DNA of 64,000 bases from Engraulis encrasicolus (lineage: Eukaryota > Chordata > Actinopteri > Clupeiformes > Engraulidae): contig NC_085872.1 in NCBI RefSeq assembly GCF_034702125.1, positions 32,657,376 to 32,721,375 of the forward strand, given 5' to 3'. Numbering within the stretch: the first letter of the stretch is position 1; every line of letters begins with the position of its first letter. The notes below the pieces were generated by a model. That model made no database searches, was not told the origin of the DNA, and worked only from the letters and a program-made list of their open reading frames with translations. Below are positions 9,283-19,661 of this stretch, one piece after another. Made by a program: the position numbers and the translations under genes.

Positions 9283-9345
9283 TAGCCTGGCTCTCGCGAG
9301 ACCCCGAGTGCTTCGTGCATCTTCGTTACACTTCGTGAGCTCGCA
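9283..9345 (+). repeat. Left terminal inverted repeat and subterminal repeats
   Basis: The first 16 bases match the right end with two mismatches. Within the next 45 bp the heptamer CTTCGTG or its near form CTTCGTT occurs three times (about 9310-9338), a plausible transposase-binding array. Function is inferred. Confidence 0.7.
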
Positions 9346-9500
9346 CAGGGGTCTGGTTCAGCCTTGTCGAGCCCGAAGTCCTTCGAGTAGAAAATAAACG
9401 TGCCCGCCTCTATACCTACATCCAATTACAATCGTGGGGCGGGGTGTTAACTACCTATGACGTAGCATCCGGCGCGACGACGAACACAGTAACAACAACA

Positions 9501-12122
9501 ATGGCGGCGTGCGTGGAAGAGCATGGATTCAGCTTCGATTCGGCAGTTTCGAGAGTGTTATCTAAACTACCACACATTAAATCTTTAAAAGAGGAGCAGA
9601 AAACGGCTTTGAAGGAATTTGTTGGTGGGAAGGACATTCTCGCCCTCCTTCCGACCGGGTATGGAAAGAGTTTAATCTACCAAATTGCCCCGCTGGTAGT
9701 ACAGGAGATGGGACGACAACAGGAGCCCATTATTGCAGTGGTGTCTCCTCTCATTGCTCTGATTCAAGATCAAATCCGCGAGGCAGAACGTTTGGGAGTT
9801 TCGGCTGCGCAGCTCGGAGGAGAGAACGACAGCGATATCCTGAACGGACATTTTCAACTTGTATTCGGCAGCCCCGAGTCCTGGTTGAAAGAGAAATGGC
9901 TGACCATGTTGGGCTCAACAGTTTACCGGACGAACCTAGTCGGGATTGTGGTCGACGAGGTCCATGTCACCTATAAATGGTAAGTGATCTTTTCATCTTT
10001 TAATTCCTACTTAATTGTATTTTAAGTATGTGAAACCATGGGCTTAATTTTAGGGGGGATGGTGGGGACATGTCCATACCACTTTTGAGGTAAACCTAGC
10101 TTGTCCCCACCACTTTTTCACAAATACAATGCGAAAACAGCATACCCTGACAATTTGCCATTGAAATGTCCCCACCACTTTTCGCGCCAAACCTACACCT
10201 TTGTGTGAAACAATATTGACAACCGGGAATGCCCTCGCGTTTGTAGCTGACTATATAGCAATTCAATTTGTCCTGCGTGGATCTTTGGTGGAACTGAATT
10301 AATTTGCCCGATGTCCGATAAGATAGATGTTGACCACAATGCCCAGACGTCACATTCAGACAAATATGTACATTAAAACTGAGTGTTAACTCGAATACAG
10401 TACAACTTTGATAACAGAGATCTCTAATGCCTTTCAGGGGTCAAGGTGCGCAAGGAAATCCAGCCTTCAGAGAGTGCTTTTCTCGCCTGGGAGAACTCCG
10501 GTCAGTTGTGAAAGAAGGTGAGTTAATGTCGTGAATAAGAGAAAAAAAGAACACTGGAAACACCATAGTACTACAGACTAAGAAAACACTACTTGTTTTC
10601 AAGATTACTTCAGTATTGAGTTTGAGCCTCAGCGGGTTGTTGTAACAATGTGTACCGGTATTTTTCCTTTGTAGATACCCACTACCCTTTGTTAATGAGT
10701 TTTGAAGAGAAGGTGTTTTTTTTTTAAAAAAATATATTTTTTATTCTGATACTGGTCAAGACCCAAACTCCCCATTCTTGCCCTCTCAGCAATAAACATA
10801 TATTTAAGGTTTTGTACTGTTTAGTACTAAGACTTACTTAATTAATAAAACCCAGGTTCTTTACATAAAGTTTACCAGCCGAGTTTGCAGACTTCATTTT
10901 TGTTTTGTTATGTGTGTGTTGTTTTTCAGGCACGCCTGTCATGGCCTTGACAGCATCAGCTGAAACTGCCAACAGAGACCGTGTCTCCCGTCTGCTACAC
11001 ATGCACAATGCCACTCGGATAACTGTGAGCCCAAACAGAGACAACATCAGACTTGGACTTAAGCATGTTCCCAAAGACGACCTTGAGTGCATGGACTGGG
11101 TGGTGACTGAGGTCAGAGAGAAGGGGCTGTTTATGTCTCCGATCATCATTTACTGCACATCACTGAAGGCAGTTGGAAGAGTGTTCTGCCGTCTGAAAGC
11201 TGAACTTGGGGATGATGCATGGGTGGACCGAGATCCTGAGCACAAGGCTGAAAATCTGCTGATTGGAATGTACCACAGCAAAACATTACCACAGTACAAA
11301 GCCAGAGTGCTTGCGTCCTTCACTGGTGAGGGTAGCTGCAGGGTTGTTGTGGCTACAACTGCTTTGGGGATGGGTCTTAACTTCCCTAACGTGTCCCACG
11401 TTGTCATGTACGGAGCACCAGAGGACGTGGAAGCCATTGTGCAGCAGGTTGGGAGGGCTGGGAGAAACTCTCTACCATCACATGCAGTGTTGTATGCCAT
11501 AAAAGGAACACCCAGGGTAGACAAGACAGTAAGTGCAGTGATTAAGGCTGGGGCACAGGGCTGTTTTAGGAAAGCCCTGTTTGCACACTTTGACACACAC
11601 GCAACAAGTTTGGAGCCAGGTCATTTGTGTTGTTCCTTCTGCCAGTCCATTTGTGCGTGTTCATCTGGTGTTTGTGTTGAGCCTGCTCCAAAATGTGACT
11701 CTGTACAACATCATGTGCCCACTACCCCACCAAGATCAAGAGAAGTGACAGATGAGGACAGGGATATTATCAGGGACTGCTTACAGAAGTACATGCATAC
11801 TCTAGTACCTGACATGCCACTAGTCACAAACACGACTGTCTGCTCAGGGTTTGGGATGGAGCTCATCGATGCAGCTGTGCACCACAGTCCTTACATCTTC
11901 GATCTTAGTTACATAACAAACAACCTACCAGTATTTAGGGTACGACATGCTCAAGAAATTCTACTGGTTATGAGTGAGGTGTTTTGTGACTTTGACTATT
12001 CCGAGCCAACTCTTCCTGATGACAGTTTTTTGGAACCAGATATTGATTTTGCTGGCTATTTTGATACACCTGATGAGGAGTTTGAAATTGATCAACACAG
12101 CAGTAGTTCAGACTCAAACTAG
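9501..12122 (+). CDS. RecQ-like ATP-dependent DNA helicase (transposon-borne), intact
   Basis: Three exons, 9501-9979, 10438-10517 and 10930-12122, join with GT-AG junctions and exact phases to give 583 residues. The ATG at 9501 is in good context (ACAACAATGG); an in-frame ATG-like extension to 9444 is less likely. Helicase motifs in order: EEQ near residue 32, Walker A LLPTGYGKS (49-57), motif Ia VVSPLIALIQDQI, Walker B DEVH (152-155, where RecQ proteins usually have DEAH or DECH), ALTAS (motif III), IIIYCTS (motif IV), then TTALGMGLNFP and QQVGRAGR (motifs V-VI, about 328-365). A Cys-rich cluster (CCSFC then CAC, about 418-440) fits the RecQ zinc-binding part. There is no HRDC domain and the tail is acidic (SSSSDSN). 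No lesion was found. It probably unwinds transposon ends or repair intermediates. Confidence 0.92.
10040..10215. repeat. Dispersed repeat in helicase intron 1
   Basis: A block with TGGGGACATGTCCATACCAC and the later ATTGAAATGTCCCCACCAC recurs at about 42121-42290 in the same orientation with modest divergence. It is non-coding. The nature of the repeat is unknown. Confidence 0.75.
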
Positions 12123-12218
12123 CATCTGCCCTACACTGGGAGAAAGGTAGCAGATCATTTTTGTCACAATGTCTTTGCAAATGTAAATAATGATGTACAC
12201 AGGTGATTAACAAATGTA

Positions 12219-12224
12219 AATAAA
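12219..12224 (+). promoter_or_regulatory. Poly(A) signal of the helicase gene
   Basis: AATAAA lies about 97 bp after the helicase stop codon, in an AT-rich stretch. Confidence 0.6.
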
Positions 12225-12229
12225 ATTTA

Positions 12230-17483: not shown

Positions 17484-17525
17484 CAGCTCTCTCTCTCTCT
17501 CTCTCCCTCTCTCTCTCTCTCTCAA
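17484..17525. repeat. (CT)n microsatellite
   Basis: This is a CT-repeat tract in the intron between DUF6589 exons 2 and 3. Confidence 0.9.
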
Positions 17526-17665
17526 ACACACACGCATCTCAAAGTACAAAAAACATACACTTAGACCAACTAACTACATGTTATTGCACTAACCATATTT
17601 AAGTTCATTATTACACTAATCATATTTAAGTACATTAAGCACAGCAGTCAGCCTTCCACCATTTC

Positions 17666-17770
17666 ACACACACACACACACACACACACACACACACACA
17701 CACACACACACACACACACACACACACACACACACACACACACACACACACACACACACACACACACACA
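17666..17770. repeat. (CA)n microsatellite
   Basis: An uninterrupted CA repeat of about 100 bp lies in the same intron. It is likely polymorphic. Confidence 0.95.
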
Positions 17771-19628
17771 GTTGGTCACGCATTGTAAGCAATGGGGCAC
17801 ATGTAGTGTTTTGAAACAATGCAGAGAGACCTCTGTTGACTCAAAAATGGCTGTTATTCTGTTATTAATGTTACATCCTGACAGCAGTTTAATGGATGCA
17901 CAAATATCACAGTGTTAATAACAGATCTGTCTTACCTGACAATGCATGCTGGTTCAAGCCATGCATAGCTACATCCAGGTCTCTCACAGCAACATTCGGT
18001 GTCTCTGTCTCTGGTGTGCTGGACCCAGTAGCCACTTCGGAACCTTCACTCCCTGGAACTGAAGCCAAGGCAGTGGCTCTGCTGGTCTCTTCCATTCTCT
18101 CTTGGAGGCAGATTTCGATGGCTACTTTCAGTGTTTGAAAGTCCTCCCCACATGTTTTTGCCAGTTCTTTTTGCTTCTTGATAGCACTGGAGTATGACGT
18201 AGTAATGCCCAACTTGCCAAGCCTTTTAAATGCTGCCTTCTTCACCCCAGCATACTGCAGGACATTGTTCACATAGTAAGCAAAGGCTGATAAGCGGTTA
18301 TCTCTGCCTTAAAGAGCGATAGATGCTGCAGCACAGGCAGCATTTGCAGACTGTTTGGTGATGGTAAGAAAAATGGAAAAAAGAAATGGTGACACGCGCT
18401 GGAAGTCTTCCTGCAATTTGTCAAAGGAAAATGCTTTCAGATCTTCAGCAGATGTTTTTGACAGCATGAAGCCTGTGAATGGATTGCAGATCTTTTTGCA
18501 GTCATCCTCTATGACCTGCTGGATGCTTTCAGTGAGAGGTCCAAACAAGTCCTTGTGCCTTATGATTTGTTTGGCGGCCCAGTTCCACTTCTTTTCAGCA
18601 ATCGCCTGGATAATGCCAGCTGTGTCGTCTGGGCACACAGTTGTCTCACCCCTAGGCTTGGAAGGATAATAGACAACTACCTGCAACACAAAACGAAATC
18701 ACTTGCAGTCAGTATCAGATGCTAAACGCATGGTAGGTAGGCTATTGTTAACTTTATATGTTAACCTCTGTTTTAGGTTAGATAGGATGCTGGAAGCTAA
18801 TTTTAATGGTTGACTTTGACCATTACCCATGCAAAAAGTAATCTCAGACTCATGGAACTAAGCTTTAAATGTGGAATGACAGCTTTTGTACTCGCGCTGC
18901 ACTGGTTTAAACAAGTACGGTAATTATTGTTGCATGTCTTATGATGTTTTTGACTTACCTTGGTAACACTTTGCCGTGCTCTGCCAGTGCTTGGCCTCTG
19001 TACTTTCGGAGCTGGTGGAGCAGTCGGCGTGGGGGGTTGGGGACGGAGCTTAGAGGGAGTTGGAACCCTGTCTCGTTTCTTCGCCAAAGTCTCGGTCGCC
19101 GACGGCGTTGCACTCGGTGTTGTCACAGCAGAACAACTCTGCTCCACTTCGGCCTTTTGCCATGCTTTTAAAGTAGTTTGCGACTCTTCGATCCTACATA
19201 TTAAGCGATGGCACTTCATACACACACGAAACGACCTATGCTGAACGTTTGCCAACGTCAAACCAAGTTCGGCAAGACGTTCGCTGAGGGATTTTTCGTT
19301 TGTGTTTTTTTCAAAAAGCTTCTTGCTGTTTCCAATAATGCCCTTTACCCTCAGATTTTCACAGCACAATCGACATAATCGGGGGATTAGCTGCTAGATC
19401 CATGCTGTTGCTTTGCTCGATGTTGTTGTGGTCTGTTTTGGTATCCTCCCCCGCCCCGACCGAGAGACTGCGTCGCGCTCCAACACGTCACGTCCGCTTT
19501 CGATATGATTGGTCGAAGTAGTACGTGACAGACACATTGAATTCTCCAACCAGGTTCGAGCTTTTTTTGAATGCAACCCCCGCCTACTCGCAGCAGAGAA
19601 CAGCTAGGTAACCACCAAAATTCCAGAT

Positions 19629-19661
19629 GGATGACAATCCATCTGCGCGAGAGTCAGGTTA
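19629..19661 (-). repeat. Right terminal inverted repeat with subterminal hairpin
   Basis: Read inward from 19661 the sequence is TAACCTGACTCTCGCG, matching the left end. Just inside it AGATGGAT and ATCCATCT (19625-19644) can form an 8-bp hairpin with a GACA loop. The left end has no matching hairpin, so the two ends are asymmetric. Confidence 0.7.

Follow-up and report, generated by a model that had tools for sequence, protein, structure and literature searches.

A 64,000-nt stretch of the genome of Engraulis encrasicolus (European anchovy; NC_085872.1:32,657,376-32,721,375), in the following called the window, contains a transposon of 10,379 bp with two convergent genes, one for a predicted RecQ-type helicase and one for a protein with a DUF6589 domain. 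Coordinates are positions within the window unless another contig is named. We consider it highly probable that this element belongs to a family of cut-and-paste transposons of the AcademH type in the European anchovy that, as we infer, moved recently.

Boundaries and further copies

The extent of the element (9283..19661) is given by an interrupted host repeat and a target-site duplication. The repeat resembles a miniature inverted-repeat transposable element (MITE), is ~500 bp long and lies on the plus strand in two parts, the left one ending (9150..9282) and the right one beginning (19662..20040) directly at the element. An uninterrupted copy on the same strand (31648..32157), 97% identical to the right part over 31779-32157, represents the empty site: when the two flanks were joined, 118 of 120 bases were as in this copy. 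A second uninterrupted copy (50570..51021, plus strand) is more diverged. Compared with the repeat copy without insertion, the 9-bp sequence TGCAATCGC is duplicated on both sides of the element (9274..9282 and 19662..19670). The outermost 16 bp form imperfect inverted repeats, TAGCCTGGCTCTCGCG at the left end (9283..9298, plus strand) and TAACCTGACTCTCGCG at the right end (19646..19661, minus strand), matching at 14 of 16 positions, a value reached by two of 200,000 random 16-mer pairs drawn from the window. Allowing up to three mismatches, no further end match was found within the window. Exact ends, the TGCAATCGC duplication, short inverted repeats and a split MITE had been proposed in a first-pass annotation of this DNA, and all were borne out to the base.

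We searched the anchovy genome (1.433 Gb, 1880 contigs; the window is C16:32657376-32721375) with both ends of the element. For the left end (218-bp query), the best 40 of 1007 candidates were scored and ten copies besides the one in the window were examined. For the right end, the best 40 of 204 candidates were scored, and among these four, the window included, matched with 99-100% identity. The numbers of candidates (1007 versus 204) hint at very many short relatives or left-end-like sequences. Nine of the ten copies had an identifiable right end and, without exception, a perfect duplication of 9 bp; in the remaining one (C23) about half of the examined stretch is N, and its right end was not found. 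As a control, the left 9-mer occurred once in the 12-20 kb downstream, right after the matching end, in all nine. Further away, three copies have additional end-like matches (one in the first, two in each of the others) that lack a duplication; in each case we used the closest match, which is the one with the duplication. The first 16 bases are identical in all 11 other copies of the family and its shorter relatives in which the left end was read.

Over 10,338 aligned sites, a full sister copy (C18:29768151-29779593; 11,443 bp) shows 28 substitutions relative to the window copy (0.27%), distributed over noncoding (19/5423), helicase (2/1752) and DUF6589 (7/3163) sequence. Among the gaps between the two copies is an insertion of 1063 bp in an intron. 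Another copy of the same family (C1064:17425-30676) is flanked on both sides by ACGCGAGTT. We dropped a match on C1389 as a separate insertion: it has the duplication of the C1064 copy and 585 of 600 flanking bases alike, and the two are therefore one insertion on two scaffolds, perhaps uncollapsed haplotypes of the assembly. Eight of the ten examined copies are short (4.1-6.3 kb) with decayed pieces of the helicase gene, and none of the eight gave a DUF6589 match at an e-value of 1e-3. These ~4-6 kb relatives with the same ends are probably non-autonomous passengers.

There is, in addition, a second family, 53-54% identical in helicase exon 3, with two copies (C2 and C3) that are 99.8% identical across 1771 bp starting exactly at TAGCCT and have different flanks. 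The C2 copy is 7176 bp long and bordered on both sides by ACAACCTTA; its right end, located by searching for its left 9-mer, is the inverted TAGCCTGG. In the C3 copy, masking (N) covers the right end. End motifs across the two families are TAGCCT or TAACCT. The first-pass annotation had named other copies as a check on its reading, and these agree with it: they share the same ends, and all 12 insertions with both ends readable, a tally without the C23 and C3 copies (N), possess perfect 9-bp duplications of varied sequence.

The helicase and DUF6589 genes

Looking from the left end, the ATG of the helicase gene is the 219th base. Three plus-strand exons (9501..9979, 10438..10517, and 10930..12122 with the stop codon at 12120-12122) form an open reading frame of 583 amino acids, with the motif TGYGKS and a DEVH box in exon 1 and the motif QQVGRAGRN in exon 3. 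Pfam assigned the domains DEAD and Helicase_C, and the best PDB sequence matches include RecQ, WRN, and BLM; judged by its sequence, the protein is a RecQ-type helicase. Intron 1 contains a repeat of ~167 bp (10037-10203) with a second window copy at 42120-42287 (87.5% alike). The sister copy on C18 has this repeat too, while the match on C1064 passes it over and looks like an empty site of the repeat.

From the right end, the ATG of the DUF6589 gene is the 259th base, so that the earlier estimate of gene starts ~220-260 bp from either end holds on both sides. The gene consists of eight exons on the minus strand: exon 1 (18959..19403), encoding a cysteine-rich N-terminus, exon 2 (17936..18680), exon 3 (16761..17314), exon 4 (16551..16627), exon 5 (16104..16285), exon 6 (14742..14818), exon 7 (13953..14077), and exon 8, the last (12655..13616). 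Exon 5 and the boundary of exon 4 were set by homologs and the sister copy, the latter providing the boundary. The protein matches PF20231 (DUF6589) with an e-value of 4.3e-34; the query for this match, for the PDB search with this protein and for the comparison with the short copies contained a wrong stretch in exon 5. An intact partner gene of 1054 codons, as described in the first-pass annotation, was not confirmed. The start region is out of frame with the remaining exon 1, the frame is broken again in exon 5 (near 16180), and exon 2 contains an in-frame TAA (18309-18311); with two frame lesions and one stop, the 1054 codons are not one intact gene. None of these lesions is present in the C18 sister copy, whose DUF6589 gene is open and encodes 1059 amino acids. 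The window copy is unable to make a whole transposase; its two ends are preserved, and its helicase gene is open. Within the introns of the DUF6589 gene lie a TTAA-bounded inverted-repeat element with arms TTAAAGGGACAGTTTGGTC... (intron 5, 15223-15640; shared with the sister copy) and a perfect (CA)53 microsatellite (intron 2, 17665-17770).

The association of the two genes extends well beyond this copy. In a genome search for DUF6589, all 75 candidates were scored, yielding 53 matches merged into 45 loci; for helicase exon 3, 105 of 410 candidates were scored (135 rows), and the top 71 rows were merged into 69 loci. Of the 45 DUF6589 loci, which include near-identical copies that are not independent events, 43 have a helicase no more than 15 kb away, and the other two have none within this distance. 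The probability expected by chance for such a pairing is 0.0014 per locus. In all 43 pairs the genes are convergent (tail to tail). The first-pass annotation had named separate occurrence of the two genes in unrelated contexts as a result that would contradict it, and at these 43 loci the opposite was observed. Conversely, 26 of the 69 helicase loci from the top 71 rows have no DUF6589 match. This describes a two-gene cassette of helicase and putative transposase kept together across several families of one vertebrate genome.

DUF6589 is most likely a DDE transposase with a predicted RNase H-like fold, because the modelled structure of a relative is similar to the catalytic cores of DDE enzymes and D, D, and E residues are conserved. 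This model was built on a 42-sequence alignment with P0003 (Engraulis encrasicolus) as first sequence; P0024 was excluded from both model alignments and P0027 as well as P0056-P0058 from the 42-sequence one. An earlier model (26 sequences, P0001 first) was dropped for its poor quality. For fold comparison we used VIA-align alone, re-examining the ranking given by Foldseek. By this measure the modelled protein resembles the catalytic cores of P element, Hermes, ISCth4, integrase, Transib, and RAG1, with P element transposase (PDB 6pe2, 6p5a) as the best match at 8% identity in the alignment. The proposed catalytic residues are the D119/D270/E577 equivalents, the first of them lying in the motif IIFDNLDF of exon 3. 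A PDB sequence search with the DUF6589 core gave no match, and Pfam yielded no model besides DUF6589 at e-values up to 1. The structure model thereby lends support to the first-pass equation of DUF6589 with the transposase, and a role can now be proposed for what was a Pfam domain of unknown function; the term DUF6589 was not mentioned in the literature searched.

Subterminal regions and hairpins

Compared in 20-bp steps, the window copy and the eight short relatives are 94-100% identical in the left ~120 bp (9283..9402, plus strand) and the right ~40 bp (the left part alone 95-100%), versus 33 to 88% in the inner steps and 71-76% over all aligned parts together. The short relatives were picked as best left-end matches, which favours the left-end figure, so only that for the right end is free of this bias. 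The C1064 copy, although of the same family as the window copy, is less alike in the left end.

Just inside the inverted repeats, hairpins can be drawn at both ends. The right one (CAGATGGATTGTCATCCATCTG; 19624..19645, minus strand) has a z-score of -3.40 as single-stranded DNA; seven of the eight short relatives share it exactly, and the eighth carries an insertion. The left one (AGACCCC...GGGGTCT; 9299..9354, plus strand) is no better than shuffled sequences (z -0.54). In the second family the values are z -3.24 for a left hairpin in the matching place and z -0.44 on the right. Three of four neighbouring control stretches were unstructured and one was structured (z -2.92). We therefore treat subterminal hairpins as recognition signals as a lead rather than a result. 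In a further-reaching and rather unlikely scenario, these elements would represent a helicase-coupled DDE class with DUF6589 as its catalytic domain and a hairpin at each end that is kept in position and not in sequence, which the helicase would expose and the transposase would read as a single-stranded structure. We know of no eukaryotic DDE element for which such a route has been described.

Classification, mode of movement and neighbouring features

According to excerpted text of PMC10045372, AcademH elements generate duplications of 9 or 10 bp, whereas AcademX elements of the same superfamily possess a nuclease and duplications of 3 or 4 bp, and the author ties these lengths to the helicase and the nuclease, respectively. 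By the title of Kojima 2020 (Mobile DNA 11:15), as given in PMC10045372 and PMC10799480, AcademH is known from animals and fungi. The anchovy element shares helicase and 9-bp duplication with AcademH, known here by descriptions in other papers, and its agreement with the DDD/E transposase of that group is one of prediction. The AcademH type therefore fits, assigned by helicase and duplication length against the published descriptions, and the AcademH match suggested in the first-pass annotation is consistent with that in the excerpts of PMC10045372. This type of transposon is already known; the anchovy family and the domain assignment for DUF6589 look new. Excerpts of the anchovy genome paper describe an assembly of 1.4 Gb with 24 chromosomes and a genome enlarged by DNA transposons; in a term search of its main text, the sole match to 'Academ' was 'Academy' (PMC13403563). 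The element adds to this account of DNA-transposon growth.

For its movement, we propose that the DUF6589 protein would bind the short inverted ends together with the subterminal regions of ~120 bp on the left and ~40 bp on the right, and that its D, D, and E residues would cut the ends and join them to target DNA with a 9-bp stagger. The RecQ helicase that the element itself encodes may work with this protein; most likely it would either unwind the element's ends or promote the synthesis that repairs the donor gap. Host BLM helicase repairs the donor gaps of P elements, and since P element transposase is the best fold match, a role in gap repair is attractive. The window copy would move only if an intact copy supplied the transposase. 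With near-identical copies at hand, one of them with both genes open, the need for an own helicase in a cut-and-paste transposon becomes directly testable.

Several other explanations were weighed against the AcademH-type cut-and-paste element. The helicase might serve replicative single-strand transposition (peel-and-paste or copy-out), as helicase and drawable hairpins inside the ends of two families recall Helitron-like routes. We regard this as unlikely: inverted ends, precise 9-bp duplications and the predicted DDE-like fold mark DDE integration, two of the four end stretches were no better than shuffles (z -0.54 and -0.44), and one of the four controls reached z -2.92. That a Mutator-like element (MULE) or a member of another known superfamily (P, hAT) acquired a helicase appears quite improbable. 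Duplications of 9 bp are typical of MULEs and speak for this reading, as does the presence of P element and Hermes (hAT) among the best fold matches of the model. On the other hand, DUF6589 (4.3e-34) is the only Pfam match up to an e-value of 1, and the two genes are found together at 43 of 45 DUF6589 loci. P elements, whose transposase has 8% identity in the fold alignment, generate 8-bp duplications and are not known to carry a helicase.

An assignment to helicase-bearing Kolobok (KolobokH) instead of Academ would account for the combination of DDE transposase and RecQ helicase, found likewise in KolobokH, and in a red-alga Kolobok the helicase lies on the opposite strand; in the excerpted text of PMC9587614, however, Kolobok duplications are TTAA (4 bp) and KolobokH is known only from fungi so far. 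As all 12 readable insertions in the anchovy have 9-bp duplications and none has TTAA, we consider it very improbable. It is hardly credible, finally, that two host genes were captured by chance, such as through a segmental duplication that broke the MITE: RecQ-type helicases are also host genes, but this family has three insertions, further families share its layout, and every insertion in which the two ends could be read has a duplication.

Elsewhere in the window, Pfam detected a remnant resembling a long interspersed nuclear element (54998-57820) with Exo_endo_phos (54998-56170) and RVT_1 (56137-57123) and a further open frame to 57820. Possible hAT-like fragments are a match to DUF4371, a domain linked to hAT, at 20344-20898 and a Dimer_Tnp_hAT match at 534-950 that is weak and below the cutoff. 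A DDE_Tnp_4 transposase fragment (24145-24777), by its domain presumably PIF/Harbinger-like, adjoins a tandem duplication of ~190 bp (24648-25027).

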